Below, piece by piece: positions 6,931 to 42,279 of a stretch of 64,000 nt of DNA (the stretch's first letter is position 1; every line of letters starts with the position of its first letter). A model generated the notes under the pieces. That model was not told the DNA's origin and did no database searches. It saw only the letters and a program-made list of their open reading frames with translations. Made by a program: the position numbers and the translations under genes. Origin of the DNA: Mycobacterium sp. D16Q14 (GTDB taxonomy: Bacteria; Actinomycetota; Actinomycetes; Mycobacteriales; Mycobacteriaceae). The stretch lies in contig MAEX01000003.1 in NCBI GenBank assembly GCA_002013415.1, forward strand, positions 119,571 to 183,570, written 5' to 3'.

Positions 6931-6978
6931 AGTATCGGGTACTTTCAGTATCGATAACTGGGTGTATCGAATACCTGG
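6931..6978 (+). promoter_or_regulatory. Three tandem 16-bp operator-like repeats upstream of the PapA-like gene
   Basis: Three direct repeats with exact 16-bp periodicity start at 6931, 6947 and 6963. Each carries GTATCG, and each forms a short dyad: AGTATCGGGTACT, AGTATCGATAACT and TGTATCGAATACC. The last ends 17 bases before the start codon at 6996, just upstream of the ribosome binding site AAGGA (6986-6990). The first and third copies fit RGTATCNNRTACY (the third with T at position 1), found upstream of three other operons in this window. A repressor array is the likely function (inference). Confidence 0.6.
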
Positions 6979-6995
6979 CTTGCCTAAGGAGCTTC

Positions 6996-8327
6996 ATGCC
7001 CGAGCTGCTGCCGCCGCGCGTCCTGTCGCCCTCGGAGTCTGTGTTCGTCGTCTCGGGTGCCACCGTGGCGCAACATTGCTATGGCACGGGAACGCTGGAC
7101 GATGCTGCGCTGGCGGATGCGCTCGCCGGATTGGTGGACCTGTATCCGCTGTTGGGTGGCCGGATTCGTATGTCGCGGAATGGATTTGAGCTGCGATTCG
7201 ACCCTAGAGCGCGCCCGGCGGTCATAGTCCAGGATGTTGGTGATGTCGATGTCGGGGACTATGTGGTGGCCGGGAAGTCGGCCTTGCCCCTGGGGCAGGT
7301 GTGTGCGCTGCGGGTGTATCGGTCCGGCGCGAAGTTTAGGGTGACGTTTCTTTTGCACCACGCCATCGCCGACGCCGACGCCGCCATGGCATATCTGCAC
7401 GATATGTGGAAGCTCTACGCGGAGCGCGTGCGACGGGTGAACGGCGTGGTGAGGTTGGTCAGTGCGCCACCGCCGCGTCCCGTTCCGGCCAGTGCCGAGA
7501 CGCTGCTGCGGGCGCGTGGCTATGCCGAACCGGTGTCCCGGCCGATCATGGACCTCCGTCCCGCATACCGCGGCCCCGAATCGATCTGGACCGCCCTGCG
7601 GCCACGTCGCGCGCGGCGGGCACGCCTTCACCTGTCGGTGGAGCAGACCGATCGGCTCCTTGACGTGGGGCGCGCACAGGGGGTCACGCTCAATGGGCTC
7701 GTCAGTGCGGCGCTGGCGCTTGCCGAGCGCGAGCTCTCCGGGAGAAGTGAACTGTCCGTGGCTATTTCCTCATTTGTGAACTTGCGCTCCCGGATCGATC
7801 CGCCGGTCGCTGCGACCGCGGGCACCAACGTGCTGGGCATTGCCGAGATGATCCTTGACGTGAGTCGAGGCAGTGATGCGCTCGACCTCGCCCGCCGCGT
7901 TGTGGCGGACATTCACGATGGGCTACGGACCACCCGCATTCACGACACCGCGTTTGTCCGCGGCGACATCCGGCGGGTGCTGTCTTTGGTGAGGCGGTAT
8001 TTCCTTCTCGTACCGACGGCAGGTTTGGTGCCCACCTTCACCGCCATCCAGGTCACCAACTGGGGGCGGGTATCGGAGTTTGCAACGCCAGAAGGCGTGG
8101 ATATCCATGATTTCCGTTGTGGCGTCGAGCTTCATCCCATGAGCGCATTCATCGCGACCAGGGGCATCGCGATGGTAGAGGGTCGGATCTACTTCGTCAC
8201 CAGCTACAACGGACGCCTGAGTATTGACTTCACCGATCTCGTGACCGCCACGAGCAGTGCGCGGCGAGTCGAGCAGATATTGCACGATGAGATCGAGAAA
8301 TTGCTTCCTGCAAAGGTTTTCGAATGA
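6996..8327 (+). CDS. PapA/wax-ester-synthase-like acyltransferase (condensation-domain fold)
   Basis: A 443-residue protein with the CoA-dependent acyltransferase fold of PapA5, wax ester synthases and NRPS condensation domains. The catalytic HHxxxD motif is HHAIAD near residue 116, followed by DADAAMAYLHDMW. A TNWGR block near residue 350 occupies the place where related enzymes carry a structural DFGWG-type motif. The family transfers long acyl groups onto alcohols or amines. ATG 6996 has AAGGA at 6986. It is preceded by the three tandem operator-like repeats. In context it could esterify alcohols made or released by the neighbouring oxidoreductases and esterase (inference). Confidence 0.8.
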   Translation: MPELLPPRVLSPSESVFVVSGATVAQHCYGTGTLDDAALADALAGLVDLYPLLGGRIRMSRNGFELRFDPRARPAVIVQDVGDVDVGDYVVAGKSALPLGQVCALRVYRSGAKFRVTFLLHHAIADADAAMAYLHDMWKLYAERVRRVNGVVRLVSAPPPRPVPASAETLLRARGYAEPVSRPIMDLRPAYRGPESIWTALRPRRARRARLHLSVEQTDRLLDVGRAQGVTLNGLVSAALALAERELSGRSELSVAISSFVNLRSRIDPPVAATAGTNVLGIAEMILDVSRGSDALDLARRVVADIHDGLRTTRIHDTAFVRGDIRRVLSLVRRYFLLVPTAGLVPTFTAIQVTNWGRVSEFATPEGVDIHDFRCGVELHPMSAFIATRGIAMVEGRIYFVTSYNGRLSIDFTDLVTATSSARRVEQILHDEIEKLLPAKVFE

Positions 8328-8346
8328 ATTCGCAGGAGGTGCCGAC

Positions 8347-8886
8347 GTGAAGTCGCTTTTCGACTCGTCTGGCTGGGGCCGGGAACAGATAGGATTCACC
8401 GACGACGCCGGGGTGTTCGATGTTGCCGCGGCGGCGCTGGGCATCGCAGCGTCCACAGGTCTGTCGCCCCGGGCGGTCACCGCCGTCTTCTTCGGACACG
8501 GTGCCACAGCGGCAGGGGGCGACCCCATCTACATCCAGCATGTCCAGTTCTTTGAAGCAGCGATCGCCGAAGGGGTCCTCCTGGACATGGTTGTGCAGGA
8601 GCTGTCCGCCCCTGGTGCGGCGCAGCCCAGACTTGTCGACGACCCCGCCGCGCGGAACGTGAACATGTTGTCCGTGGTGATGAAGGTTCCGGCGCCGCCG
8701 ACGACCCGATGGTCCGGCGCAGTGGTCGCGCTGCATATCGCGAATGCGCTCAACGTGCTCCGGATCAGCGTGGGTGTGGTGCGCGACCCGGTCGCATGCC
8801 GATACCCCGTCGACGAACTCGTGACGAATGCGTCCGTCGTCGTTCGGGATATGCGCTGCACCGAGCTGAACAGGGAACTGCGTTGA
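8347..8886 (+). CDS. Conserved-looking protein of unknown function
   Basis: A 179-residue protein starting at GTG 8347, chosen because AGGAGG lies at 8334-8339 with ideal spacing; the open frame extends upstream to 8257 but overlaps the acyltransferase gene. I recognise no domain. It is soluble, with no signal peptide or membrane segment, and has a regular alternation of hydrophobic strands. It ends with a Cys-containing segment (DMRCTEL). It follows the acyltransferase by 19 bases, so it is very probably co-transcribed and may assist it, but that is only a guess from position. Confidence 0.7.
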
Positions 8887-8929
8887 TACGTCTGGAGCAG
8901 CCGTGCAGCCACATGAGAGACTGGCGCCC

Positions 8930-11847: not shown

Positions 11848-11955
11848 CCTCTCACCGCGCAAGGTCCGGCGCGTACCTGTTTAGACTCTGACGGCAATGA
11901 AGCGTGCGTATCCGCGCGCGCCCCGGATCGGTCAGACACGTCGATGGAGCAGCTA

Positions 11956-13272
11956 GTGGCGCAGGATCCGCCTCGCCGAGGACGCCCCCCGGTGTCCGGA
12001 CTCGCCGATAGGCGCCGTCAACAGATCGTCGACGCGGCCTTCGCGGCATTCACCGAAAACGGCTACGAGCAGACCAGCATGTCCGATATCGCCACCCGTG
12101 CCGGCATGGGGCAGGGCACCGTCTACCGGTATGTCGATAGCAAGCGCGAGGTTCTGGACCTGGTCTTCGACTATGGCGTGGAGCGCCTTATCGACACCCT
12201 GTCGCTCGATGACTTTCTTGACGTGGTCGGCGGAACGGCCGGTATCGAAGAACGAAACGACATCATCATGGAAGGCGGCCGCCGCCTCTATGCACTGGTG
12301 GACCAGGAGCCGGCGCTGCTCAAACTCCTGACCGTCCAGTCGGCCGCCGCCGATAAGGAACTCAAACAGCGTGTGCTGGGTATTCAGGGGATGCTCGATT
12401 CGTACGTCCAGCGGGGTTTGGATAGCGGCCGCCGCGCCGGGTGGGTTCCGGAGGACGGCCAAAACCACGCCGTGCTCGCGCGCCTGTTGCCGGCACTGGT
12501 TCTCCCCGGTTTTCTGCTCGCCCAAAGCCGGCACGATAACCCCAGTACCCGAGAGCGATTTGTGACCACCGCTTCGCAGATCGCGGAGACGGGCATTCTG
12601 CGTGACGGTGTGGTTCTGGAGCTCGGCGCGGGGCATACGGCTGCGGAAGCCGTTGGTTCCGTACATATTCCAGTGCCTATTGCCTCCGATCGCCGGAATG
12701 AACTCCTCGATTCCGCGCTTGGTTGTTTCCTGTCCGACGGTTACCACGGCATCGGAGTGAACGAGATCGTTGAGCGGCTCGGGGTCAGCCACGGCACGTT
12801 CTACAACTACTACCAGAACAAACGCGACTTGCTCGATGCGCTGATGGTCCGCGAGTTTTCGGCGATGGAACCCGTCCTGTCTCGACCGGTTGGCCGTCTC
12901 GATGCGCGTCAGGACATTGAACACGCTCTGGCACAAGGGTTTAGCAAGGCGCTTGAGACGGTGGCTGGTCGGTTGCCTGCGCTGATCTTCGTGTGCACGG
13001 AGGCCGCCGGAGTGGATCCGGAGGCGCTTCAGTCCATTATTCAGTTTTTCCGCTTTGCGTCGGTGCGTAGCGAGCAGTCCGTGTACTCGATGCTCGGCGC
13101 CGACCGGATCAACCCGTCGATCGACACCGAGTTCCTCGGCCAGGCGTTTGTGTCGTTGCTGATTGGTGCCGTCACCCTGATCGTTGACGATGATGGGCGG
13201 ACGGGCCATATTGACGAGTACGCGCGAGCCATCACGCAGTTTTTGCTCTATGGTCTGAACTCAGCGCCGTAG
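11956..13272 (+). CDS. Tandem TetR-family regulator with two complete TetR units (Mce3R architecture)
   Basis: A 438-residue single chain made of two TetR repeats. The first helix-turn-helix (QQIVDAAFAAF..TSMSDIATRAGMGQGTVYRY) is near residues 20-65. The second (NELLDSALGCF..GVNEIVERLGVSHGTFYNYY) is near residues 248-292. Each is followed by a helical ligand/dimerisation-type region. M. tuberculosis Mce3R, which represses mce3 and nearby lipid genes, has the same fused design. GTG 11956 is preferred because GGAG lies at 11946-11949; ATG 11944 is in frame too. It is the best candidate in the window to bind the asymmetric RGTATCNNRTACY element (inference). Confidence 0.88.
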   Translation: MAQDPPRRGRPPVSGLADRRRQQIVDAAFAAFTENGYEQTSMSDIATRAGMGQGTVYRYVDSKREVLDLVFDYGVERLIDTLSLDDFLDVVGGTAGIEERNDIIMEGGRRLYALVDQEPALLKLLTVQSAAADKELKQRVLGIQGMLDSYVQRGLDSGRRAGWVPEDGQNHAVLARLLPALVLPGFLLAQSRHDNPSTRERFVTTASQIAETGILRDGVVLELGAGHTAAEAVGSVHIPVPIASDRRNELLDSALGCFLSDGYHGIGVNEIVERLGVSHGTFYNYYQNKRDLLDALMVREFSAMEPVLSRPVGRLDARQDIEHALAQGFSKALETVAGRLPALIFVCTEAAGVDPEALQSIIQFFRFASVRSEQSVYSMLGADRINPSIDTEFLGQAFVSLLIGAVTLIVDDDGRTGHIDEYARAITQFLLYGLNSAP

Positions 13273-14723: not shown

Positions 14724-14763
14724 CCCTCTTGTATTTTTGTGAATGGCATGTCAGTCTGTTAAA
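14724..14763 (+). promoter_or_regulatory. 40-bp promoter element shared with 42335-42374
   Basis: These 40 bases match 42335-42374 at 35 positions without gaps, and the last 23 bases differ at only one. The core GAATGGCATGTCAGTCT contains TGGCA-TGTCA as a direct repeat or imperfect dyad. Both copies stand upstream of an operon containing a flavin monooxygenase. The element ends 35 bases before the esterase start at 14799. A common activator or repressor site is the likely explanation (inference). Confidence 0.6.
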
Positions 14764-14773: not shown

Positions 14774-14786
14774 TGTACGAGATACC
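14774..14786 (-). promoter_or_regulatory. RGTATCNNRTACY-type operator site
   Basis: On the minus strand these 13 bases read GGTATCTCGTACA, matching the recurring element except at the last base. The site lies 12 bases upstream of the esterase start codon and just after the 40-bp shared element, so it would overlap transcription initiation or the leader. Confidence 0.45.
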
Positions 14787-21956: not shown

Positions 21957-22745
21957 CTACTTCTGACCGGGAAGCGCAGGCAGCGGCGGAAGGCTAGGGG
22001 CGGGCGCCTTACCGGGCGCCGGGGCCAGCTCCTCGGGAAGCAGCTTCTGGTCGCCGGGATGCATGATGGTGCCGGTGGAGCTGGCATTTTTGGGGCCGAT
22101 ATCGGTCACCTGCCATCCGTCGCCGTCTTTCTTGACGGTGATCTGCAGGACCAGCGTGGTGGCCCGGGGCTCCGGGTTCTGTACGTTTCGGGTGGTCTGC
22201 CGGGTGGTGACCACAACCTGGTAGATGCCGTTCTGCTGTGCCACCGCATCCGAGGCGATGATCTCGCCCTTGGACGTCACCTGCGCCTGCAGCATGATGG
22301 CCTTGAGGAGCTTCTCAGCATCGCTGTACTTGCTCTGAAGTGGCTCGGCGGCACCTTCTTTGACGTTCTTGAAGAACTTCTCGGGATCTTCGTAGCTGTA
22401 GGTGAGTGACTTCATCGCGTATGCGGATGCCGCATCGGTGGCCGCGGTGCGTTCGGTTTCGCCCGCACGGGTAGCGGCGAGGGTGTCGGACAACTTCTGG
22501 TATTGCCAGACCCCGAGAACAGCTCCGAGGATTCCCACGGCGAGCAGGCCGATGGCAAACCACTTCCAGATATTGGCGCCGCTGTCCGGCGCGTCTGTAT
22601 CGGATTCGTTTTCAACGACTTTCGAACGCTTTGCGGGTTTCTCTTTGGCCTTCGCAGGGCCCTCGGTTGCCTCGTCGGTGGTCTCCGAGATTTCCTCGGG
22701 ATCTGCGTCATCCAGGGGGAGCGTGCGCTCGTCGATGTCGGTCAT
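21957..22745 (-). CDS. Mce-associated membrane protein
   Basis: A 262-residue protein from ATG 22745, which overlaps the mceF stop by ATGA; the open frame continues upstream but inside mceF. It has an acidic and Lys-rich cytoplasmic N-terminus (residues 1-58), one membrane helix (FAIGLLAVGILGAVLGVW) and an extracytoplasmic domain with the NTF2-like features of Mas proteins (DAASAYAMKSLTYSYEDPEK..). The C-terminus is Pro-rich. Mas proteins are encoded at the ends of mce operons and are thought to stabilise the transporter. Confidence 0.88.
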   Translation of the reverse strand: MTDIDERTLPLDDADPEEISETTDEATEGPAKAKEKPAKRSKVVENESDTDAPDSGANIWKWFAIGLLAVGILGAVLGVWQYQKLSDTLAATRAGETERTAATDAASAYAMKSLTYSYEDPEKFFKNVKEGAAEPLQSKYSDAEKLLKAIMLQAQVTSKGEIIASDAVAQQNGIYQVVVTTRQTTRNVQNPEPRATTLVLQITVKKDGDGWQVTDIGPKNASSTGTIMHPGDQKLLPEELAPAPGKAPAPSLPPLPALPGQK

Positions 22746-26090: not shown

Positions 26091-26098
26091 CAAGGGCC

Positions 26099-27121: not shown

Positions 27122-28131
27122 TGACACACCACCAGATCCTGATTGGCGAAGGACACCTCACCGATTCCGGGCATCTTCACCACGCCGTTCTTGCACTCGA
27201 AGGCGGTGGGGGGCGCCGTCTTCTCTTCGATCAGTGCATCGCGCATGCCCTGCACGAGGTCGGGGATCAACGACAGACCCGCCATGATGGTCGGGGTCCC
27301 CGGGGTGGTGCGGCTCGCCACGTCATACAGGGGTAGCTGGGCGCCGTCGACCGTGTTCTCGATGTACCGCAGCAGGCTGATTGCTCTGCGCAATATGGGC
27401 AGTGCATCCTTGCCGGCCCTATTGAATTCGTCGGCCTGTTGCTCGAACGGGGCCAGCACGTCGTTGAGATCGTTGACCAGATAGAACAGCTGGTCGGAAG
27501 TGCCGCCGAGGTCCTTCGAGATATCACCAAGATTCGTGACGATGGCCTGGAGGGCGGCCTGGCGGTCCACCGAGAGTTTGAGGACGGCATCGATATCACG
27601 CAGGATCGGCCCTATTCCGCGCTCGTCACCCTGGATGAGCTGCAGAATGTTCTCGGTCAATCTGTTGAACTGGGCGGGGTCCAATGTTTGGAATATGGGC
27701 CGGAAACCGTTGAACAGCTTGGCGATATCGAATGAGGGGATGGTCTGTCCGAGCGGTATGGTCGCGCCGGCCGCCAGGGGCGCACTGGGTGTTGGTGCCT
27801 GGGCGATCTCGACGTACCGTTGACCGACCAGCGACTGATACCGGATCGCGATGGTGGTGTTCTGGTAGAGCGGATGGTCTGTCAGCACATTGAACGTCAC
27901 CCGCGCGTTCTTGCCGTCGAGATGAATTCTCTCGACCTTGCCGACCTGCACTCCTGAGATGCGTACGTCGTTGCCGATGATCAACCCCGAGGCGTCGGTG
28001 AACAGCGCATCGAAGCGCCGCACCGGGCCGTTGACTGGTGTGCGCAGGGCGTTCACGATGATCAGGGTCAGCACCACGGCTACTGCGACTGTCGCGGTGA
28101 GGCCGGCCATCAGAAATGCAATCCGTTTCAT
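27118..28131 (-). CDS. mceB: MCE-family protein MceB
   Basis: A 337-residue MCE protein from ATG 28131, which overlaps the mceA stop (ATGA); the 90-codon upstream extension is inside mceA and rejected. It has an N-terminal membrane helix (FLMAGLTATVAVAVVLTLII), the MCE domain with GNDVRISGVQVGKV and YQSLVGQRYVEI, and a C-terminal helical region ending with a Cys pair (FECKNG, VVCQ). Confidence 0.93.
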   Translation of the reverse strand: MKRIAFLMAGLTATVAVAVVLTLIIVNALRTPVNGPVRRFDALFTDASGLIIGNDVRISGVQVGKVERIHLDGKNARVTFNVLTDHPLYQNTTIAIRYQSLVGQRYVEIAQAPTPSAPLAAGATIPLGQTIPSFDIAKLFNGFRPIFQTLDPAQFNRLTENILQLIQGDERGIGPILRDIDAVLKLSVDRQAALQAIVTNLGDISKDLGGTSDQLFYLVNDLNDVLAPFEQQADEFNRAGKDALPILRRAISLLRYIENTVDGAQLPLYDVASRTTPGTPTIMAGLSLIPDLVQGMRDALIEEKTAPPTAFECKNGVVKMPGIGEVSFANQDLVVCQ

Positions 28132-29210
28132 CGCGGTCCTCCAGAGGTTGGCCCGGGCACGGGTCCGGTGACCGTGGAAGCGGCCCGGCCATCGGGCGCC
28201 ATCGGCATTGCCGCGGCGAGCCCTGGCGCGGTGTCCATGATCAGCTGGACGTTGAGGCGTACCTTGCCGTTGTCGACGGGGAAGGCGGCGGTTGTTCGGT
28301 CGAGCAGGCCGTTGAGCCTGTCGTACGCCGGGGCGAGGCTGCCCAGGAAGTAGGTGGATGGGATGGCCAGATCCAAGAGCGACCGAACCAAGGGAACGAT
28401 CCAATCGTTGTTGTCGTGAAGTCCGTCGCCAATTCCCTTGAGCAGGTTCGTCAGCCCATTGATCGCGGCGGTGGCCCGCTCGGTGTCACTCGGAGCAACC
28501 ATGAAGGTAAGGCTGTCGAGCAGCTTGTTGGTGGACCCGATGACGGGCGCAAATTCGTTGGCGCCCTCGATCAATGAGGCCATGACCGCCAGCGTTTGGG
28601 AGAAGGGCACTGTCTGAGAATCGGCGATCATCGCGAACAAGTCCCAGAAGGATTTCACGACCGGGCCGGTCAGGTCGGCGTGCCGCTCGAATGTTGCGAT
28701 GATCGCGTTGAATTCGCGGCTGTCCAGGATCGAGCCCAGCCGCTGACCCATGCGCAGAAATCCGGTGATGGATGCCGCCTCGACGTCACTGCTGATCTCC
28801 AGCACCCCACCGGGTTTCAGCGGTTCGCCGACGCCGTTACTGACGAGCTCTACGGCGGCGGTGCCGAAGATGTTCGACGAGGTGAATCGCGCCGTGGTAT
28901 CGGCCGCGAGGGCCTTGGCTTGCCGACCGTCGAGGGTCACCGTCATCCGCTGCTTGTTGTACCCGGTGGTCTGCAGGGATTTGACCTTGCCGATGTTGTA
29001 GCCGCGGTACTTCACCTCGCCACCGGGGCCCATGCCCTCACCAATGGTATTGGTAATCAGAGTGAGCTCGAAGGGCTCGCCATAACTGCCGATGCCGGAT
29101 TGATAGAGCGAATAGCCGCCGGCGGCGACCACAAGTGCCAGCGCAAGTCCGCGCACCTTGAGGGCGCCTGGACCTGCGGACCGTCCGCTGGGATCTTTAT
29201 AGATGGCCAC
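28128..29210 (-). CDS. mceA: MCE-family protein MceA
   Basis: A 360-residue MCE protein starting at GTG 29210, 3 bases after the yrbEB stop. It has an N-terminal membrane helix (LALALVVAAGGYSLYQSG), the MCE domain (GGEVKYRGYNIGKVKSL; FTSSNIFGTAAVELV) and the longer coiled region seen in MceA proteins, with a Pro/Gly-rich end. MceA-F are thought to form the periplasmic needle that conducts lipid to the YrbE permease. Confidence 0.94.
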   Translation of the reverse strand: MAIYKDPSGRSAGPGALKVRGLALALVVAAGGYSLYQSGIGSYGEPFELTLITNTIGEGMGPGGEVKYRGYNIGKVKSLQTTGYNKQRMTVTLDGRQAKALAADTTARFTSSNIFGTAAVELVSNGVGEPLKPGGVLEISSDVEAASITGFLRMGQRLGSILDSREFNAIIATFERHADLTGPVVKSFWDLFAMIADSQTVPFSQTLAVMASLIEGANEFAPVIGSTNKLLDSLTFMVAPSDTERATAAINGLTNLLKGIGDGLHDNNDWIVPLVRSLLDLAIPSTYFLGSLAPAYDRLNGLLDRTTAAFPVDNGKVRLNVQLIMDTAPGLAAAMPMAPDGRAASTVTGPVPGPTSGGPR

Positions 29211-29213
29211 CCG

Positions 29214-30092
29214 TTACCCCGATATCTGAATTCCAGGATTGTTGCCCCAGAAGAGCAACGTGAGAAGCATGTCGAAGAGAACGATCGCGACCAGCGAGGC
29301 CCGGATGGCGCGCCCGGAGGCCATACCCACGCCCTCGGGTCCGCCATCGGCGTAGTAGCCCTGATAGCACTGGATGGCGATGATGATGACGACGAACACC
29401 ACGGCCTTGATCACCGAATAGAGCACGTCAATCGGGTGCACGAATGAGTCGAAGTAGTGCTTATACACGCCCTGCGACTGGTTGTGGACGAAGAACACCA
29501 TGAACGCGCAGGAACCATAGGCCAGCAGCAGCGTCAGTACGTACAGCGGAACGATGATGACGATTCCGGCGATCACGCGGGTGGTGACCACGAACGGGAT
29601 GGACCGGATGCCCTGCGCCTCGAGCGCGTCGATCTCCTCAGAGATGCGCATGGCCCCGATCTCGGCGGTCATGCGGCATCCCGCTTGTGCGGCAAACCCG
29701 ATCGCGGCGATCATCGGGGCCATTTCCCGGGTGTTCACATAGGCGGAGATGAATCCGGTGAGCGAACCCATGCCCACCATGTCGAGGGTCGAGAAGCCCA
29801 CGATGCCGACCGACGCGCCGACCGCGATCCCCATGAAAACCAGAACGCCGATCACCCCGCCGCCGACGATGATCGAGCCGTTGCCCCAGGTCATGTCGAC
29901 GAGCAAGATGCCGGTTTGGCGTCGGTAGCGCTTGATGGTCTGCGGTATGGCGGCCAGCACCAGGCCGACGAAGGTGATCTGGTGGCCGAGATATTCGGCG
30001 GAGCCACCCGCGCCCTTGGTGAAGTTCCAGATGGACCGCGCGACCGGGGGTAGTTCGTCGGGGAAGTACCGCGAGGGACGGGAGGTGGCCAC
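29214..30092 (-). CDS. yrbEB: Mce permease subunit YrbEB (MlaE family)
   Basis: A 292-residue integral membrane protein of the MlaE/permease family, GTG start at 30092. It has about five hydrophobic segments and the conserved cytoplasmic EAEIG-type loop (CRMTAEIGAMRISEEIDALE, residues 140-160) that contacts the ATPase in such transporters, followed by IPFVVTTRVIAG. It pairs with YrbEA to form the inner-membrane channel. The ATPase MceG is normally encoded elsewhere and is not in this window. Confidence 0.94.
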   Translation of the reverse strand: MATSRPSRYFPDELPPVARSIWNFTKGAGGSAEYLGHQITFVGLVLAAIPQTIKRYRRQTGILLVDMTWGNGSIIVGGGVIGVLVFMGIAVGASVGIVGFSTLDMVGMGSLTGFISAYVNTREMAPMIAAIGFAAQAGCRMTAEIGAMRISEEIDALEAQGIRSIPFVVTTRVIAGIVIIVPLYVLTLLLAYGSCAFMVFFVHNQSQGVYKHYFDSFVHPIDVLYSVIKAVVFVVIIIAIQCYQGYYADGGPEGVGMASGRAIRASLVAIVLFDMLLTLLFWGNNPGIQISG

Positions 30093-30094
30093 TG

Positions 30095-31069
30095 TCAGCC
30101 CACCTTCGACGGCATGAACATCGCGACGATTTGAGTGATCACGGTGTTGAGCACCATGACCGTGACCACACCGATCACGACGGTGGCGTTCACCGCATCG
30201 GCGACTCCCCGCGCGCCGCCCTTGGCCTCTAGGCCGCGCTGACAGGCGACGAGGATGACCACCACGCCGAACAGCCAGGTCTTGAGAACCGCGACCGTGA
30301 CGTCATTGACGTTCGCGAACGCGGCGAACGAGGACAGGTAGCTGCCGGGGGTACCGCCTTGAAAACCGACGTTGACCAGGTAACCGGCGAAGATTCCGAC
30401 GAAGATGATGAAGATGCACAGCAGTGGTGAAACGAACAGAATCGCCGCCAGTCGGGGCGTCACCAGCCGCTGGATGGGATTGACGCCCATCACCCGCATG
30501 GCATCCACTTCCTCGCGGATGCTGCGGGCGCCAAGATCGGTGGCGACTGCGGAACCCGCAGCGCCACCGAGGAGCAACGCGGCGACGATGGGGGCGCCCT
30601 GCTGGATGACGCCCAGACCACCGGCGGCACCGGAGATGGACGATGCTCCGACCTGCGAGATGATGCTGCCCGCCTGCACGGCGACGATCACACCGAAGGG
30701 GATCGACACCAGGATCGCCGGAACAACCGTGACTGTCAGGATGAACCAGGACTGAATGACGGTGTCTTGCCACGGGTGACGCAGGCGGACGATGTCGCTC
30801 ACCAGAAACGCGAAGGACTGCGCCACCAGATCGACATAGCGGCCCAACGTTTTCAGCATCGAATCGGTTTGGGAGACCACATATTCGACGGGGCGCCGGA
30901 CAAGTCGAGGGGCCCGATTGAGTAGCTGGAAGCCGCCGCCCGATCCCGAAGAGGCTGGGCTGTCGACGGTGGATTTGCTGCCGTATTCAACATCGGAGGA
31001 TTGGCCCCACTCGTCCGCGACGGACTCTGGGTGCGCCTCGGCCGCTATTTGACTCATGGCTGAGTTCAA
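30095..31069 (-). CDS. yrbEA: Mce permease subunit YrbEA (MlaE family)
   Basis: A 324-residue MlaE-family permease and first gene of the mce operon. After a roughly 70-residue polar cytoplasmic N-terminus it has about five membrane segments and the loop DLGARSIREEVDAMRVMGVNP that mates with the ATPase. TTG 31069 is six bases after AAAGGAG on the minus strand and is better placed than ATG 31057, so I keep the TTG start. Two operator-like palindromes lie upstream at 31110 and 31146. Confidence 0.93.
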   Translation of the reverse strand: MNSAMSQIAAEAHPESVADEWGQSSDVEYGSKSTVDSPASSGSGGGFQLLNRAPRLVRRPVEYVVSQTDSMLKTLGRYVDLVAQSFAFLVSDIVRLRHPWQDTVIQSWFILTVTVVPAILVSIPFGVIVAVQAGSIISQVGASSISGAAGGLGVIQQGAPIVAALLLGGAAGSAVATDLGARSIREEVDAMRVMGVNPIQRLVTPRLAAILFVSPLLCIFIIFVGIFAGYLVNVGFQGGTPGSYLSSFAAFANVNDVTVAVLKTWLFGVVVILVACQRGLEAKGGARGVADAVNATVVIGVVTVMVLNTVITQIVAMFMPSKVG

Positions 31070-31145: not shown

Positions 31146-31158
31146 GGTATCTAGTACC
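31146..31158 (+). promoter_or_regulatory. RGTATCNNRTACY operator upstream of the mce operon
   Basis: GGTATCTAGTACC is a full match to the recurring 13-bp element and has GGTA/TACC dyad ends. It is embedded in a longer dyad (GTGGG at 31143-31147, CCCAC at 31158-31162). It lies about 77 bases upstream of the yrbEA start. Confidence 0.55.
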
Positions 31159-31406
31159 CCACATCACAGTCGGTGGCTTAGTGTGGTGTAGGCCATGGCC
31201 CCTGTCAAGCGCGGGGTTACCGCGTTGATCAGGTTGCAGCATGTGCCCACGCGGGTAGATATGTGACGCGTCCTGGTCGGGGCGGTGTCATGGCGAGGCT
31301 GTCGGAGGTCCCCCGACCCGGCCTTCTAGCAATTCACTGGTTCAGTGTTCAGTTTATTGGCTAGGGCAGAGGCTAGCGGAGGTTCACGATCTTGGGACGG
31401 GAATTG

Positions 31407-32087
31407 TCAAGAATTTGCGAGCGTGGGAGGGGCGGTGGTCACCGACCGCACCAGCTCGATGAATGAGCCGATGTACGCCTCGCGTGCGTCCCCCGCCAGT
31501 TCGCCTCGGATGGCCTTCAGCGTGGCGGCCATCGACAACCCGGTGATGGCATGCGCCAGGAATTCGGTGTCGACGGCCAAGGTGATGGCACCGTCCGTGC
31601 GGGCCTGCTCGATGATGGTGATGTTGATGGACTCGATGAGGTCCAGGATGCCGAACATCCGCTTCGTCATTGCTGAGTCGAGCAGACCTTCACGCAGGAT
31701 GACCTGCACGATCTCCGGACTGTTATCCAGCATGTCGAATAGCCGAGTGAATACCGTGCGCAGATGCTGGTCGAAGTCACCCGCATTGCCCAACAGGTCG
31801 CTGGTGTCGTTCACCGCCGCGAGCGTTCTCTGGAAGTAACTGTCGATCACCGCGTCCAGCGCGTCCCGTTTGGTGTCGAAGTACAGATAGAACGTGCCCC
31901 GCCCCACGCCCGCGCGCTGGGTGATGTCGGTGATGCTCGCCTTGTGGTAACCCTTCTCGGCGAATTCCAGGGCGGCCGCCTCGGTCAGGGTGCGCTGACG
32001 CTCGCGTGCACGCGTCGGATTCGGCGGGCGGCCCGGCCCTCGCCGGCCTCCGTTGGTGCTGGCCACGCGAACACAGTAACCACTCAT
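31407..32087 (-). CDS. TetR-family regulator upstream of the mce operon
   Basis: A 226-residue TetR protein. The helix-turn-helix is near residues 35-75 (LTEAAALEFAEKGYHKASIT, RAGVGRGTFYLYF), preceded by a basic GRRGPGRPP arm. ATG 32087 is chosen over the frame start at 32129 because the upstream residues do not look coding; no clear ribosome binding site is seen, so leaderless translation is possible. It is read in the same direction as the mce operon, 337 bases upstream, and probably regulates it. Confidence 0.88.
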   Translation of the reverse strand: MSGYCVRVASTNGGRRGPGRPPNPTRARERQRTLTEAAALEFAEKGYHKASITDITQRAGVGRGTFYLYFDTKRDALDAVIDSYFQRTLAAVNDTSDLLGNAGDFDQHLRTVFTRLFDMLDNSPEIVQVILREGLLDSAMTKRMFGILDLIESINITIIEQARTDGAITLAVDTEFLAHAITGLSMAATLKAIRGELAGDAREAYIGSFIELVRSVTTAPPTLANS

Positions 32088-32223
32088 GGCAAATATGTTG
32101 GTAAATGCACTAACGTGCCGTCGCATCATTCGGGCGCGATCACAACCATTTCATTTAGCTGAACTGCGGGCCGGAGAAATATGCCGTGGTGGGGAGGTGG
32201 GGGTCGATACCTCTCTCTAGGGT

Positions 32224-32240: not shown

Positions 32241-32364
32241 TGACGGCATTGTTTGCTGTACACCTCATGGGGGTTGCTCATCGTGGGCGCCCCAGTTGAT
32301 TCTCGGTTCTTCTGGGTCGCGCTATGCGCACCGGAGGCCCAGGTAGTCGGTCTACGATGTGGGC

Positions 32365-33054
32365 GTGTCAACGCAGGTGTATCCCGATCGCGGCCTTCCT
32401 GAGCTGACCGGTGATGCGCGCGTCGACCGGTGGCGTGAGCATCGTGCGAAAGTTCGCGCGGAGCTGGTAGAAGCGACTCTGCGTGCGATCGACGAGCTCG
32501 GTCCGGATCTTTCGATCGACGATGTCCTCAAGTCCGCGGGTATCTCCCGGCCCAAGCTGTACCGCTTCTTCGCCGACAAGGAAGCCCTCTTCACCGCGGT
32601 GGCGATGCGTGTTCAGGAGTTGGTTGTCGAGCGGGTGGTGTCGAACATCGACTTGTCCCTGAGCCTGCTTGAGCTTTTCCGCTCGGGAATGGCCGGTTAC
32701 GTCGACCTCGTCGATGAGCAGCCCAACCTGGTGCGCTTTCTGCTGAGTGTCCACTATGCGAATGCGACATCGCTCATCGAGAGCGGGCGGCCGCTGTCCG
32801 ACGCCATTGCCCAGCTGGTGGGCTCGATATTCAGTTCTCGCGGTGGCAACGCCGATCACATCGAGTATGTGATCGATGCGATGCTGGCCTCCACCGGTAT
32901 CGCGGTCCTGCGCTGGTTCGACGAGCCGGTCATCAGCAAGGAAATGCTCGTCGATGAGCTGGTGGTCTATGTGTGGGGGGGGCTGGCGGCATCCGCCAAG
33001 GCTCGTGGTGTCGAGCTGCATCCGGACGATCCCATCGTCCTGCCTGTCGACTAG
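32365..33054 (+). CDS. TetR-family regulator upstream of the diiron/BVMO operon
   Basis: A 229-residue TetR protein with helix-turn-helix near residues 33-75 (LVEATLRAIDELGPDLSIDD, SAGISRPKLYRFF) and a helical C-terminal domain. Start GTG 32365 is used; GTG 32359 is in frame. It is encoded directly upstream and in the same direction as the operon beginning at 33243, whose leader has a perfect 17-bp palindrome, so it is the likely local regulator (inference). Confidence 0.88.
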   Translation: MSTQVYPDRGLPELTGDARVDRWREHRAKVRAELVEATLRAIDELGPDLSIDDVLKSAGISRPKLYRFFADKEALFTAVAMRVQELVVERVVSNIDLSLSLLELFRSGMAGYVDLVDEQPNLVRFLLSVHYANATSLIESGRPLSDAIAQLVGSIFSSRGGNADHIEYVIDAMLASTGIAVLRWFDEPVISKEMLVDELVVYVWGGLAASAKARGVELHPDDPIVLPVD

Positions 33055-33196: not shown

Positions 33197-33213
33197 TAGT
33201 ACTTCAAGTACTA
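33197..33213 (+). promoter_or_regulatory. Perfect 17-bp palindrome before the diiron/BVMO operon
   Basis: TAGTACTTCAAGTACTA is an exact 8-1-8 palindrome ending 29 bases before ATG 33243. A weaker dyad (TACTGAAGGTAGTA) overlaps its left edge, so two regulator dimers might bind side by side. It has the size and symmetry of a TetR operator. Confidence 0.6.
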
Positions 33214-33242
33214 GTAACTTTCCGTCACAAGGGAGTGGTGAA

Positions 33243-34097
33243 ATGGCAAGTCCAGCTGCGGCGTACCCCAAGACCCGGCGGATCCGATTCCGTTTCGGCG
33301 ACGACGGCAACGCCCACAAGTACTTCGTGGAAAACGACATCGTCTACAGCCATTTCGTCGCCGGACTGTCCGGCGGCTTCCCTCCGGGCGAAGAGGGATT
33401 CATCCGTTCGGTGCGTAGGTTCTCCGACCAGATCACCGATCCGGTGCTCAAAAAACGCGTCGCAGGATTCATCGGGCAGGAATCGGTGCACGGACAAGAG
33501 CATCGCCGGGTCAACGAGAAGCTGATCGATCTGGGCTACCCCATCGCATGGTGGGATGCGCCGAAACAGGTTGACCGGTTGATCCGGTTCGAGAATATGC
33601 TCCCCGCTCGCGCACACCTGGCCTTCACGGCGATGGCCGAGCACATGACCGCGATCCTTGCCGAGCGGACTCTGGGTAGCGAGGAAGTGCAGGCCATTCC
33701 GGGTGATCCCGAAGTGTGGCATCTGTTGAACTGGCACGCCTTGGAGGAGCTCGAGCACAAGTCGGTGGCATTCGATGTGTACCGCGCGGTCGGCGGTACC
33801 GAGACCATGCGGATCGGTCTGATGCTCGTCGCGATGACCATCGTCCCTCCGCTGACGCTCGGCGTTCTCGCCGGCTCGTTGCTGTCCGACCCGGTCGCGC
33901 GGCGCCAGCCACTTCGGCTGTTGCGCGAAGCGCGGGGGCTCTTCGGCGGACCCTTGTTCAAGGGGATCGTGGGCGATGTTCGCAAGTACCTGCGGCCCGG
34001 CTTCCATCCAGATGACATCGATACTGAGGAGCTGCTGGACCGTTGGCAGCAAGAGCTTTTCGGTAGTAAGGGCCTTCTCGTCGATCACCTCAAATAG
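33243..34097 (+). CDS. PF10118 (COG3687) predicted metal-dependent hydrolase, diiron-like
   Basis: A 284-residue protein of the family annotated as predicted metal-dependent hydrolase. It carries Glu51, Glu80-x2-His83, Glu133 and Glu169-x2-His172 (GQESVHGQEH and EELEHKS), the spacing of a ferritin-like diiron site. A hydrophobic segment lies near residues 195-215. It is first in an operon with a BVMO, two SDRs, a second PF10118 protein and a 2Fe-2S reductase. The family's true reaction is not established; the motif and neighbours suggest an oxygenase rather than a hydrolase (inference). Confidence 0.82.
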   Translation: MASPAAAYPKTRRIRFRFGDDGNAHKYFVENDIVYSHFVAGLSGGFPPGEEGFIRSVRRFSDQITDPVLKKRVAGFIGQESVHGQEHRRVNEKLIDLGYPIAWWDAPKQVDRLIRFENMLPARAHLAFTAMAEHMTAILAERTLGSEEVQAIPGDPEVWHLLNWHALEELEHKSVAFDVYRAVGGTETMRIGLMLVAMTIVPPLTLGVLAGSLLSDPVARRQPLRLLREARGLFGGPLFKGIVGDVRKYLRPGFHPDDIDTEELLDRWQQELFGSKGLLVDHLK

Positions 34098-34126: not shown

Positions 34127-35698
34127 GTGAGCACTGCCGCACGGCATTCAACGACGGCTGAGCCGGAACAACCCGACCACGAGGTGGCGGTTATCGGCGC
34201 CGGCTTTGGCGGAATCGGGACAGGTATTTCTTTGCAACGCAAAGGTATCCACGATTTCGTCATCATCGACAAATGGGACCAGGTGGGTGGTACCTGGCAC
34301 GCGAACACCTACCCGGGGGTAGCGGTCGACATCCCGTCGGTGGTGTACAGCTTCTCCTACGAGCAGCGCGGCGATTGGTCGCGTCTGTTCGCGCCGGGCG
34401 ATGAATTGCAGCATTACGCCGATTTCATGGTGGACAAGTATGGACTGCGTGAGAAGCTGCGGTTGGGGACCAGCATCGTCCGTGCGGAATTCGACGAACG
34501 AAACAGTCTGTGGCGGTTAGTCACCGATGGAGGCAGGGAGATTACCGCCAGATACTGCGTGATGGCGGTCGGCGGCCTAGAACGTCCGAAGATGCCAGAT
34601 ATTCCGGGAGTCGACGATTTCGGCGGGACGCTTCTGCATACCGCGCTGTGGGATCACGATGTGGCGCTTGCGGGTAGGCGCGTCGCGGTGATTGGAACCG
34701 GGGCGACTTCACTGCAACTGGTTCCCGCCATCGTCGACGACACACGCCATCTCACGGTGTTTCAGCGCACACCCATCTGGGTTGGTCCGAAATTGGACCT
34801 CGAAATCGGCCCATTAGGCCGGGTAATTCTGGGAAATAAGCAGATTCGCTCCGCCATCCGATCGGTCGCGACGGTCGGGATCGAGCTTGCCATGAGCGGA
34901 TCGGTGGCAGGTCCGGCGTGGCTGATCAACGCGGCGCGCCGCGCCGGCGAGGCGCCGATGCGCCGGTGGATGCGCAAACAGGTCGATGATCCTGTGATTC
35001 GGGAGAAGTTGATCCCTCAGTACGGATTGGGCTGCAAGCGTCCATCGATGTCGAACGAGTATCTCAAGACGTTCAACCGGGATGACGTCAGCCTGATCAC
35101 CGAATCGATCCAATGCGTGACACCCCACGGAGTACGCACCGTCGACGGCGTCGAGCACGAGGTTGATGTGCTGATCTGTGCGACGGGATTCAAGCTGTGG
35201 GACAAGGGCTCGGTGCCACCGTTTCCTGTACTCGGTCGCAGCGGGCAGGACCTCGGCGAGTTCTGGGACAAGCACCGTTTCCAGTCCTACCAAGGGGTTT
35301 CGGTGCCCGGCTACCCCAACATGTTCTCCATTACCGGGCCGTACGGATTCGTGCTGGGGTCCTATCTCTGGATGATCGAGGCGACATCGGCGCACCTGGC
35401 GCGAGCCATCGCCGAGACCAAGCGTCGTGGCGCCACCATCTGTGAGATACGGCAGGAGGTCCACGATGAGTACTTCCAGAAGTGTTTGAAGCGGCAGGAC
35501 AAGAACTTCCTGTTCACCGATGTGTGTGCCGGGTCAAACACGTACTACCTGGATCAAAACGGTGATTCGCCGTTCCGGCCGACGACACATGGCGAGATGT
35601 ATTGGCAGAACCGTCATTACAACCTTGATGTATACCGCTACTCAACGGGTTCGGTAGTTCCCGAGACCGTGGCATCGATCTCCGGGGAGAGTGCGTGA
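34127..35698 (+). CDS. Type I Baeyer-Villiger monooxygenase with canonical fingerprint
   Basis: A 523-residue flavoprotein. FAD motif VIGAGFGGIG, QVGGTWHANTYPGVAVDIPS and NADPH motif VIGTGATS are present. The Baeyer-Villiger fingerprint is complete: FGGTLLHTALWD, with the central His. This makes it the only one of the six related proteins here with the full signature, so ketone-to-ester or lactone conversion is the best call. GTG 34127 follows AAAGGAG (34111-34117). It overlaps the next SDR by GTGA. Confidence 0.92.
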   Translation: MSTAARHSTTAEPEQPDHEVAVIGAGFGGIGTGISLQRKGIHDFVIIDKWDQVGGTWHANTYPGVAVDIPSVVYSFSYEQRGDWSRLFAPGDELQHYADFMVDKYGLREKLRLGTSIVRAEFDERNSLWRLVTDGGREITARYCVMAVGGLERPKMPDIPGVDDFGGTLLHTALWDHDVALAGRRVAVIGTGATSLQLVPAIVDDTRHLTVFQRTPIWVGPKLDLEIGPLGRVILGNKQIRSAIRSVATVGIELAMSGSVAGPAWLINAARRAGEAPMRRWMRKQVDDPVIREKLIPQYGLGCKRPSMSNEYLKTFNRDDVSLITESIQCVTPHGVRTVDGVEHEVDVLICATGFKLWDKGSVPPFPVLGRSGQDLGEFWDKHRFQSYQGVSVPGYPNMFSITGPYGFVLGSYLWMIEATSAHLARAIAETKRRGATICEIRQEVHDEYFQKCLKRQDKNFLFTDVCAGSNTYYLDQNGDSPFRPTTHGEMYWQNRHYNLDVYRYSTGSVVPETVASISGESA

Positions 35699-36615
35699 GA
35701 AACAACGCGCTGGAGCCTCGACTGGTCGTGGTGACCGGTGCGGGTAGCGGTATCGGCCGGGCGACCGCGATCCGATTCGCCAAACGCGGTGCCTACGTGG
35801 TGGTTACCGACCTGGATCTGGACACCGCCAATGAAACGGTGGACCTGATCCACGCGGACGGGCGCAACGCGTCGGCGGTGCAGCTTGATGTCACCGACCC
35901 CGACCATTGGGCGGACGTCGCCCGCTACGTGTCCATCGAATACGGCGTTCCGGATGTGCTGGTGAACAACGCGGGGATTGTGGTCAGCGGTCCGTTCTTC
36001 AAGCTGAGCGCCGCAGACTGGGACAAACAGCTGTCGGTGAATCTGATGGGTGTGGTGCATGGGTGCCGGGTGTTCGGTGAACAGATGGTCGCACGCGGCG
36101 GCGGGCATATCGTCAACATCGCCTCGGCAGCCGCGTATACGCCGACCGCGGTGATGGCGCCGTACTCGGTGTCCAAGGCCGGTGTCAAGATGTTGACCGA
36201 GTGTCTGCGGCTTGAATTGGGGCCCAAGGGTGTTGGTGTCAGTGCGATATGTCCTGGATTCATCAATACCAACATCGGTATCCACGGCACCATGGTGGGT
36301 ATCGACCAGGAAATCGTTGATGTAAGCCAGCGGAGCATGCGGCGGTTACGTGAGATCACGGAGAAGCTGCCCTGGGCGCCGATGAGCCCCAATCTGGTCG
36401 CACGGGCAGTCACCCGCGCGGTTCGTCTGGATCTTGTGGTGGTTCCGGTGAAGCTCGAGTCATGGCTGGGCTATGTCCTGTCGCGGGCTTTTCCGGCCGT
36501 GAACAGGCGACTCATGGCTCCGTTCGGCGTCGACAGATTCGAGCGTCTGGGCGAGCGTGCGGCGGCCAAACGCAGCGAGCGTCAGGCTCCGGTTCTTGTC
36601 GATAGCGTGCAGTAG
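35695..36615 (+). CDS. Short-chain dehydrogenase/reductase, first of a tandem pair
   Basis: A 306-residue classical SDR with TGAGSGIGRAT near residue 15, NNAG near residue 92 and catalytic YSVSK near residue 160. It is closely similar to the next gene along most of its length (shared SAVQLDVTDPD, LMGVVHGCR, KAGVKMLTECLRLEL, AICPGFINTNIG), so the pair arose by tandem duplication. The start overlaps the BVMO stop. Confidence 0.92.
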   Translation: MRNNALEPRLVVVTGAGSGIGRATAIRFAKRGAYVVVTDLDLDTANETVDLIHADGRNASAVQLDVTDPDHWADVARYVSIEYGVPDVLVNNAGIVVSGPFFKLSAADWDKQLSVNLMGVVHGCRVFGEQMVARGGGHIVNIASAAAYTPTAVMAPYSVSKAGVKMLTECLRLELGPKGVGVSAICPGFINTNIGIHGTMVGIDQEIVDVSQRSMRRLREITEKLPWAPMSPNLVARAVTRAVRLDLVVVPVKLESWLGYVLSRAFPAVNRRLMAPFGVDRFERLGERAAAKRSERQAPVLVDSVQ

Positions 36616-36625
36616 GGAGACCACG

Positions 36626-37576
36626 ATGAAACTCAACAAACTCGAGCCCCAGTTGGTGGTAGTGACCGGTGCCGGCAGCGGCATCGGCCGGGCCACAGCC
36701 GTTCGATTCGCCAAACACGGTGCTCACGTGGTCGTTTCCGATATGGATCTTGACTCCGCGCGCGCCACGACAGCAATGATCCGCGCCGATGGCAACACGG
36801 CATCGGCGGTGCAGCTGGATGTCACCGATCCGGACCAGTGGGAAACCTTCGCGCGGGACGTGCTTGCCGATCATGGCGTGGCCGATGTGTTGGTCAACAA
36901 CGCGGGAATCGCCTTGGGCGGGGCATTTCTGAAGCTCAGCCCGGCCGACTGGGACAAGTTGCTCTCGGTGAACCTCATGGGCGTGGTGCATGGGTGCCGG
37001 GCGTTCGGTGAGCAGATGGTTGAACGCGGCAGCGGGCATATCGTCAATATCGCCTCGGCCGCGGCCTTCACACCGACTCCGGTGATGGCACCCTACTCGG
37101 TGTCCAAGGCGGGTGTGAAGATGCTGACCGAATGCCTGCGGTTGGAGTTGGGCTCGAAAGGTGTTGGAGTCAGTGCCATTTGCCCCGGCTTCATCAACAC
37201 CAACATTGGGCTTAACGGAATAACCGTGGGCGTGGACCAAGAGATGGTCGATCGGGGTAAGGAGATCATGCTCCGGGTGCAGGAGTTCGCAGCAGGCCTG
37301 CCGTTCTCCCCGATGAGCCCGGACTTGGTGGCACGCGCTGTGATGCGCGCGGTGAAGTACGACCTTGCGGTGGTGCCGGTGCGCACCGAGGCATGGCTCG
37401 GATATGTGCTGGGCCGAGTCGCTCCGGGAATCAACCGGCGTACCACACAGGCGTTCTCGATCGAGCGGGCGGAGCGGTGGGGTGCCTGGGCCCTCGGCAA
37501 ATTGGATGATCTGAATCTGCTTCCACGTCAGGGCGGCGTCGAGGTGGCCCGAAAGCCCACGGCAGCACGGAGGTAG
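36626..37576 (+). CDS. Short-chain dehydrogenase/reductase, second of a tandem pair
   Basis: A 316-residue SDR from ATG 36626, with AGGGAG just upstream; the longer frame from 36557 lies inside the previous gene. It carries TGAGSGIGRAT, NNAG and YSVSK at the same positions as its twin. The C-terminal third has diverged (Arg/Gly-rich tail), which could reflect a different partner or substrate. Confidence 0.92.
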   Translation: MKLNKLEPQLVVVTGAGSGIGRATAVRFAKHGAHVVVSDMDLDSARATTAMIRADGNTASAVQLDVTDPDQWETFARDVLADHGVADVLVNNAGIALGGAFLKLSPADWDKLLSVNLMGVVHGCRAFGEQMVERGSGHIVNIASAAAFTPTPVMAPYSVSKAGVKMLTECLRLELGSKGVGVSAICPGFINTNIGLNGITVGVDQEMVDRGKEIMLRVQEFAAGLPFSPMSPDLVARAVMRAVKYDLAVVPVRTEAWLGYVLGRVAPGINRRTTQAFSIERAERWGAWALGKLDDLNLLPRQGGVEVARKPTAARR

Positions 37577-41428: not shown

Positions 41429-41443
41429 AGGGCCAGTTCGCCG

Positions 41444-42238
41444 CTAGGTCGCGATCCGGAGGGCGGCCTCGCGGCGGGCACGGATGAATTGTCCTTGCCC
41501 GGTGAGTGTTTGGTCGATGTTAGTCCAGCCCTGGGCGCGCAGCCATCCGGTGACTTCCTCGCGCCCGAAGGCGCGGAAGCCGCCGATGCGCATTGCCCCG
41601 GTGACGCCCGGGAACGAGGCCGCCGGGGTTCGCAGTGACGTGAAGATCACGATCTGTCCGCTCGGCCCCGCCACTCGGCACAGTTCCCGCACGGCCTGTT
41701 CGGGATTGGGGATGAGGTACAGCGCAGCGAGGCAGACCACCGTGTCGAATGCCGCGTCGGCGAAGGGCAGTGCGTGCGCGCTGCCGCGGACGTAATCCAC
41801 ATGTTCGGCCGAGTTGTCGCGCACTGCCCGCCGCAGCATGGGGCCGGACAGGTCTAGGCCGATACACGCGCCGTCGTGCCCGAGCTGCGCGGCGAGCTCA
41901 CGGGTGTAGAGGCCGGGACCGCATGCGACGTCAAGGATCTTGAGATCCCCGCGACCGGCGATCTCACCCATCAAAGCGGTGTGTGCCTTGAGGGTGCTTC
42001 GACCGCCATAGCTGAACCCGCGGGTGAACATTGGCCGCCAGGCGCGCTCGTAGATCGCCGCCAACAGGGGGCTCTGCATGAACCGGTTGGCCAGGGAAAC
42101 CGGCTCGTCGCTTTCGGGGCCGAGGACATCGAGATAGCCGTGTTTGCGCTCGGGCGGGTGCGCGATCCGGGTGGGATCGACGAACGTATCGGCGAGCGTC
42201 GGATCCGGCAGGTTGCCCACGGTCCCTCCAGTACACAT
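41444..42238 (-). CDS. Class I SAM-dependent methyltransferase
   Basis: A 264-residue protein with the SAM-binding motif ILDVACGPGLYT near residue 99, GLDLSGPM and the ALPFADAAFDTVVC block. The fold matches small-molecule or lipid methyltransferases of the UbiE/Cma type. It is transcribed divergently from the monooxygenase at 42470 and convergently with the EphD-like gene. The 13-bp operator-like site lies 28 bases upstream of its start. Confidence 0.88.
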   Translation of the reverse strand: MCTGGTVGNLPDPTLADTFVDPTRIAHPPERKHGYLDVLGPESDEPVSLANRFMQSPLLAAIYERAWRPMFTRGFSYGGRSTLKAHTALMGEIAGRGDLKILDVACGPGLYTRELAAQLGHDGACIGLDLSGPMLRRAVRDNSAEHVDYVRGSAHALPFADAAFDTVVCLAALYLIPNPEQAVRELCRVAGPSGQIVIFTSLRTPAASFPGVTGAMRIGGFRAFGREEVTGWLRAQGWTNIDQTLTGQGQFIRARREAALRIAT

Positions 42239-42266
42239 CGGTTGATTTCAGATTAATGCAACGGAT

Positions 42267-42279
42267 AGTACTGGATACC
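42267..42279 (-). promoter_or_regulatory. RGTATCNNRTACY operator upstream of the methyltransferase
   Basis: The minus strand reads GGTATCCAGTACT, a full match to the 13-bp element. It lies in the 231-bp divergent region between the methyltransferase and the monooxygenase at 42470, close to the methyltransferase start. Confidence 0.5.

Follow-up and report, generated by a model that had tools for sequence, protein, structure and literature searches.

Which protein reads a 13-bp element that recurs ahead of several operons in one gene cluster of Mycobacterium sp. D16Q14, and which genes would it bring under common control? The cluster lies in a stretch of 64,000 nucleotides (“the window”; contig MAEX01000003.1, positions 119,571 to 183,570; G000:C3:119571-183570) of a 5.17-Mb genome, the close relatives of which in a named collection are Mycobacteroides, including M. 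chelonae and M. franklinii. A preliminary description of this DNA linked the promoters of a papA-like gene, an esterase operon, an mce operon and a methyltransferase gene through the element, and named two regulators of the TetR type, a tandem (double) TetR and TetR-31407, as possible readers.

Our answer, drawn from sequence comparisons, is that the element is probably the operator of another, single-domain regulator, TetR-32359, because a similar site adjoins the gene of this regulator in many other mycobacteria. The predicted regulon comprises an operon for a hydrolase, a Baeyer–Villiger monooxygenase (BVMO) and a dehydrogenase, predicted to serve ketone oxidation, the mce operon and the methyltransferase gene, perhaps along with the papA-like gene, which may be shared with a paralogous TetR. 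While the kind of system is ordinary, the TetR/operator pair appears to be new; among the matches listed in the open-licence literature, no paper dealt with the pair of TetR-32359 and the 13-bp site or with the locus.

The 13-bp Element and Its Conserved Dyad

The site letters quoted in the preliminary description are correct at their coordinates. The exact consensus RGTATCNNRTACY matches the window three times (at 6931 and 31146 on the plus strand and at 42267 on the minus strand), where 0.04 matches are expected, and none of 100 shuffles reached three. One shared 13-bp consensus, as originally proposed, thus describes these three sites, while the site at 6963 begins with T, the one at 14774 finishes with A, and the one at 6947 is imperfect. 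For the comparison with relatives, the clusters of ten of them were set beside the window (G193 in part only) and the promoters aligned; Mycobacteroides counts given below include the window. The conserved feature of the element across these genomes is a dyad, RGTA-N5-TACY. Of the early view that dyad-forming ends flank an asymmetric centre, the dyad is retained, while the “TC” asymmetry varies: the mce sites of the relatives read GTA[T/A]CNNGTAC, with the form GTAACGGGTAC in G267.

Outside the window, genes were called by a heuristic based on open reading frames (ORFs) and the G+C content of third codon positions (GC3). The core GTATCNNGTAC has 29 copies in the genome, compared with 8 of the reversed pattern. 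In a whole-genome comparison of genes with intergenic DNA, put forward in the preliminary description as a check, 24 of the 29 copies lie in coding DNA, and four of the five non-coding ones fall inside the window. Further RGTA-N5-TACY dyads in the same genome amount to 23 in 20 fetched stretches, seven of them intergenic; intergenic dyads stand before an Abhydrolase_3 gene (L227), an AurF gene (L228), a gene for a Beta-lactamase-family hydrolase (L229) and an AurF-AurF-BVMO array (L235).

TetR-32359 and Its Putative Operator in Other Mycobacteria

TetR-32359 is modelled as an all-helical protein (predicted local distance difference test, pLDDT, 87.9), and its nearest solved folds belong to the TetR family, including FasR and EthR. 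Orthologues were found in 50 of 396 genomes of the genus (E 1e-40), 39 of them outside Mycobacteroides, and the recognition helix RPKLYRFF is more than 95% conserved at every position across the 50 sequences. Any name given among 100 listed relatives is that of a general TetR/AcrR regulator.

Outside Mycobacteroides, 40 loci from 35 of the 39 TetR-positive genomes were compared, oriented on the TetR gene. The dyad follows this gene at a distance of 71–359 bp (limit, 400 bp) in 31 of the 40; a short palindromic putative operator near the gene is, like the TetR_N domain, a feature that TetR-32359 has in common with TetR-family repressors. Mostly, the site lies directly ahead of an ORF roughly 300 residues long, which in the loci compared (L141, L144, L153, L168) is related to the PF10118 hydrolase, and a BVMO that is 72–78% identical to BVMO3 of the window is nearby in 23 of the 40 loci, the remaining ones having different neighbours. 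When only distinct loci are counted, the dyad is present in 25 of 31, with 26 sites in 12.2 kb behind the TetR gene versus 14 in the remaining 414 kb of these loci, which is a 63-fold enrichment. When each of the 64 half-sites was tried at this spacing, GTA ranked first (25 loci) and TAC second (18), the others reaching at most 8. Open enumerations were less discriminating: that of 4-mer dyads at all spacings did not single out the element (AAGT-0-ACTT, 16 loci; GTAC-5-GTAC, 16; AGTA-5-TACT, 15; control mean 8.0, maximum 14), and among 3-mer dyads CGG-2-CCG (27 loci) ranks ahead of GTA-5-TAC (25). An additional in-register half-site is located 16 bp upstream in 16 of the 25 loci. In the window, the three papA-like promoter sites (6931, 6947, 6963) are spaced by exactly 16 bp, and a half-site AGTACT occurs in register 16 bp upstream of a site at 33207, ahead of the hydrolase gene.

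The pairing extends to G585, a member of another genus, with a dyad beside its TetR gene, and dyads precede mce operons in three outside genomes (G379, G239, G096). Nine outside loci have no dyad behind the TetR gene; four of these (L166, L167, L169, L170) carry one at, or ahead of, the start of a different operon, and L160, a contig of 7.2 kb, lacks the hydrolase operon. A separate observation concerns the TetR-BVMO locus of G131:C34, which is present twice (L139 and L140). The copies are alike in all features shown and run in opposite directions on one contig; either a large segment was duplicated in inverted orientation or the assembly is wrong here.

A scoring matrix trained solely on sites from outside genomes returned 6931, 42267, 5114, 31146 and 33207 as the top five of the window in each of two runs, with a score of 14.2 or 13.4 for 33207; the mean maximum score over 60 shuffles was 10.9. 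In a presence/absence test, the consensus RGTACTAGNTACY occurred in 26 of 29 TetR-positive genomes (45 sites) versus 4 of 30 TetR-negative ones (4 sites; Fisher 2e-9), and the reversed pattern in 20 of 29 and 23 of 30, respectively. Here, TetR-negative denotes no match at E 1e-40, with seven candidates scored per genome. The sample covered 29 of 39 positives and 30 of 346 negatives; the positives left out were G086, G124, G144, G189, G254, G285, G392, G418, G330 and G358, eight of which form a site-less clade.

Promoters and Genes of the Predicted Regulon

The features of the window are collected in Table 1. The site at 33207 aligns in 10/10 Mycobacteroides genomes, being identical in eight, changed at one base in G267 and an exact dyad in G171; in the nine genomes other than G171 it deviates from the dyad by one base. 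Upstream of it lies a candidate promoter, TTGCGC-N18-TATGGT (−35/−10, read by eye), from the position of which the site would fall just past the transcription start.

The proposed link between four promoters holds for the papA-like gene, the mce operon and the methyltransferase gene, where the dyad is conserved in Mycobacteroides, but not for the esterase operon. We rejected the latter as a regulon member because its site at 14774 is not conserved and scores far below the control maximum of 14.1; an exact dyad occurs at the esterase promoter in none of 11 genomes, the window being one mismatch off and the relatives at least two. Site 14774 is judged to be a chance match. Position 5114 was set aside despite its high matrix score: this near-perfect dyad (5114-5126, TGTACCAGGTACT), 172 bp ahead of a BVMO gene, lies within an ORF and is present in only 4 of 11 Mycobacteroides regions.

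At the mce promoter, the dyad is also present in the eleventh genome, G193, on another contig. Two of the six MCE-family ORFs passed the curated NCBIfam cut-off, while the other four and both permeases score below it; the ORF at 21957, labelled mceF in the locus comparisons, is without an NCBIfam match. Upstream of the mce site, at 31160-31200, a block CTACACCACACT...CCACC is nearly invariant in all 10 aligned genomes and could represent a promoter or the site of a third regulator. The mce operon (21957-31069) may have been exchanged between lineages, because the mce genes sampled (yrbEA, yrbEB, mceA and ORF 21957) are 94–98% identical to those of G334, whereas the flanking genes match G334 at only 81–90% and are nearer to G214.

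Table 1. Predicted regulatory sites and genes of the window, in order of position.
Feature	Coordinates	Strand	Remarks
First of three sites, papA-like promoter	6931..6943	+	AGTATCGGGTACT; exact dyad in 6/6 genomes having the gene there
Second site, papA-like promoter, imperfect	6947..6959	+	AGTATCGATAACT; unaltered in 5/6 genomes
Third site, papA-like promoter	6963..6975	+	TGTATCGAATACC; changed in G074
PapA-type acyltransferase	6996..8327	+	Pfam PapA_C, 157 bits (cut-off 30)
Tandem (double) TetR; probably reads the second element	11944..13272	+	two TetR_N stretches (Pfam)
Second element ahead of esterase operon	14741..14763	+	GAATGGCATGTCAGTCTGTTAAA; core GAATGGCATGTCAGTCT in 11/11 genomes
Esterase site of the preliminary description	14774..14786	-	no counterpart in 10/10 relatives; matrix score 7.6
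mce operon, two YrbE/MlaE-type permeases and six MCE-family ORFs	22742..31069	-	NCBIfam
Operator-like site ahead of mce operon	31146..31158	+	GGTATCTAGTACC; exact dyad in 9/10 genomes, one mismatch in G244
TetR-31407, adjoins the mce site	31407..32129	-	10/396 genomes (E 1e-40), all Mycobacteroides
TetR-32359, single-domain TetR regulator	32359..33054	+	Pfam TetR_N, 35.2 bits (cut-off 24)
Operator-like site ahead of hydrolase-BVMO operon	33207..33219	+	AGTACTAGTAACT; one base off the dyad; absent from the preliminary description
Predicted metal-dependent hydrolase, first gene of core operon	33243..34097	+	Pfam PF10118
Flavin monooxygenase, BVMO-like (BVMO3)	34127..35698	+	
Short-chain dehydrogenase of core operon	36557..37576	+	
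Methyltransferase	41444..42238	-	Pfam Methyltransf_11
Operator-like site ahead of methyltransferase	42267..42279	-	GGTATCCAGTACT; exact dyad in 10/10 genomes
Second element ahead of BVMO gene near 42470	42352..42374	+	in 9/9 aligned genomes; substitutions in G267, G171, G074

A Second Element and the Tandem TetR

A 23-bp stretch, GAATGGCATGTCAGTCTRTTAAA, occurs in only two copies in this genome at ≤3 mismatches, and with the copy near 42470 the methyltransferase/BVMO intergenic region bears both elements. The notion of a wholly asymmetric second element was rejected in view of a 16-bp imperfect palindrome inside it, the halves of which differ at two positions. Other genomes of the genus carry GASTGAYRTRTCASTC-like sites at the same kind of loci, and at times both elements are on one promoter, as they are ahead of mce in L144 and ahead of hydrolases in L145 and L200.

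The tandem TetR, which has two unlike recognition helices, was found in 11 of the 396 genomes (E 1e-60), all of this Mycobacteroides group; distant relatives elsewhere share 37–44% identity over its first half. Its association with the second element was tested in 34 of the 39 TetR-32359-positive outside genomes: all 11 with the second element at the locus carry a tandem TetR, compared with 4 of 23 without the element (Fisher 5e-6), nor does any of these four show such a site within 1.5 kb of its tandem TetR. A search of 297 genomes with a 17-mer (≤1 mismatch) was positive in nine genomes that have a tandem TetR and in one more, G279. We infer that the tandem TetR reads the second element. The earlier idea that a fused regulator of this type could recognise two unlike half-sites suits the second element better than the 13-bp element, because the halves of the former are unlike. 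Upstream of the tandem TetR gene (11860-11943), the sequence GTTTA[G/C]ACT is unaltered in 11 genomes and is perhaps a promoter or an operator; a supposed copy of the second element at this promoter was dropped, since the resemblance, seen by eye, was a gapped one only.

Competing Explanations for the 13-bp Element

Several findings weigh against TetR-32359 as the reader. Genome-wide, RGTANYNRNTACY is not in excess (39 places versus 100 for the reversed pattern); the score of 33207 (14.2) is roughly equal to the best control, a value that the reversed window reached once (14.1); and one clade of eight genomes has the TetR but no site, in L146-L149 and, over ≤1.5 kb, in four more genomes. The presence/absence test is partly circular, given that 26 of its 45 sites are local, like those from which the consensus was taken, and 19 are distal; seven of these 19 are one recurring sequence, GGTACTAGCTACC, which is also found in a TetR-negative genome. 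Counting the ten omitted TetR-positive genomes as failures reduces the result to 26/39 (Fisher 9e-6). Among eight distal sites inspected in TetR-positive genomes, four do not fit the predicted regulon (L203-L206) and four do: L199 has a methyltransferase-domain gene and an ephSDR relative and L202 a BVMO-type gene, each with two sites 16 bp apart, while the site in L200 heads two hydrolases and that in L201 is at an operon with a dehydrogenase. Finally, the genome encodes two further TetRs with a PKLYR helix, one of which, P0136, adjoins the sequence AGTACCCGGTACT, whose reverse complement is one base from 6931; our confidence in TetR-32359 is lowered because of these paralogues and the 6931-like site beside one of them. 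P0136, whose gene neighbours an AurF gene in another part of the genome, might itself read some sites, chiefly those of the papA-like promoter: its helix is KPKLYRHF compared with RPKLYRFF in TetR-32359, and its intergenic site is nearer to 6931 than the core-operon site is. However, P0136 does not account for the fact that, outside Mycobacteroides, the dyad goes together with TetR-32359, and central bases differ among the sites within one genome. We regard this explanation as unlikely, though not negligible. The TetR paralogues may share sites, with either TetR-32359 or P0136 acting at the papA-like promoter.

The two regulators named at the outset fare worse. That the tandem TetR lies within the cluster and possesses two unlike recognition helices spoke for it as reader of the 13-bp element; however, the consensus site occurs in genomes without a tandem TetR at E 1e-25 (e.g., G146, G131, G210, G344, G118, G215), and the protein accompanies the second element instead, which leaves little probability for this role. 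TetR-31407 has in its favour that its gene adjoins the mce site and that the most altered sites are those of G267, where the gene is split. Yet, it was not found in G171 or, at E 1e-40, in any element-carrying outside genome, and the sites persist in G244 and G214 despite a stop and a match confined to residues 1–178, respectively. TetR-31407 was rejected as the reader of the element, and it is highly improbable as the regulator; the state of its gene reflects either errors in the drafts or a regulator in the course of loss. Recurrence by chance or by common descent of promoter DNA would be in keeping with the many core matches in genes and the missing genome-wide excess of RGTANYNRNTACY, and chance does account for site 14774. 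As an explanation for the recurrence of the element it is scarcely credible, considering that three of the promoters initially linked are conserved amid diverged flanks and that the dyad is so strongly enriched beside the TetR gene in other genomes.

Comparison with Known Systems

The closest precedent for the control of an mce operon and oxidation genes by a TetR-type protein is Mce3R of Mycobacterium tuberculosis (PMC11667970, PMC10843139). According to PMC11667970, which presents the first structure of the double-TetR class, Mce3R is a double TetR that represses an mce operon as well as lipid and oxidation genes and has two 25-bp asymmetric operator sites. Like Mce3R, the tandem TetR of the window has a two-TetR architecture, and its model (pLDDT 80.0) matches Mce3R (9b7y) best, over 445 columns with a template modelling (TM) score of 0.58 by query length and a root-mean-square deviation of 9.0. 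Unlike in the Mce3R system, the mce site here is a 13-bp dyad that goes with a single-domain TetR, and sequence similarity between the tandem TetR and Mce3R is weak (16% identity in the fold alignment). Also, the relation is not full-length and in register: the best stretch in HMMER (E 9e-11) pairs residues 247–298, in the second half of the tandem TetR, with residues 12–63, in the first half of Mce3R. As regards an asymmetric operator of about 25 bp ahead of an mce operon, the second element is a conserved 23-bp stretch that includes a 16-bp imperfect palindrome; it stands before mce in G239 and was not found there in the window.

EthR–EthA is similar in that a TetR lies beside BVMO genes and in that EthR is among the nearest folds of TetR-32359. 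The match to EthR is restricted to the helix-turn-helix region (E about 1e-4) and does not indicate orthology. The EthR motif is larger, complex and present in multiple copies, as described in PMC4482099, which also lists predicted operators of conserved divergent M. tuberculosis TetRs; by contrast, a short dyad and several operons, the mce operon included, are involved here.

Of two TetRs scanned with the KstR model of NCBIfam (cut-off 280), the tandem TetR reached 57.8 bits and TetR-31407 26.8 bits. KstR and KstR2 are TetR repressors that join mce4 import with sterol catabolism, and the KstR operator is of the TNNAACNNGTTNNA type; the operators of both differ from RGTA-N5-TACY. FasR of M. 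tuberculosis, an activator of fatty acid synthesis, is a near solved fold of TetR-32359 at about 20% identity, and a FasR-fold entry that holds C20-CoA gives a hint at the type of ligand.

Proposed Mechanism and Biological Meaning

In the mechanism we envisage, a TetR-32359 dimer would bind the dyad, in many cases together with another half-site at a distance of 16 bp, and, sitting just downstream of the promoter, would block transcription sterically. A ligand derived from lipid, for which an acyl-CoA or a ketone may be considered, would free the protein, upon which Mce import and the hydrolase, BVMO and dehydrogenase genes for oxidation would be induced jointly. The tandem TetR would act as a second repressor, controlling the esterase operon and the BVMO gene near 42470 through the second element. 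The locus, hence, probably holds two TetR-type repressors with adjoining regulons. From the preliminary description, the idea of one regulon of Mce import and oxidation survives, with the conservation of the sites and the dyads before mce in three other genomes in its favour, while the esterase operon and both regulators named for it are lost.

On a broader scale, and as a tentative proposal that we think rather less probable than the assignment of the operator to TetR-32359, many mycobacteria may gate the Mce importer and a metal-hydrolase/BVMO route jointly by two regulators with operators on shared promoters: a single TetR on a dyad that repeats at a pitch of 16 bp, and a single-chain double TetR resembling Mce3R on a pseudo-palindrome, the unlike halves of which would match its unlike domains. 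This would constitute a lipid switch with two inputs, along with a second operator of the Mce3R type.

For a mycobacterial mce importer, the analysis thus offers a specific predicted regulator together with its operator and targets, in a TetR/site pair that is predicted in dozens of genomes, and it supplies a candidate operator for a double TetR. Tying the importer to BVMO and hydrolase genes gives a hint at the kind of lipid that is handled. If the assignment is true, the repressor would turn on lipid uptake and breakdown together.

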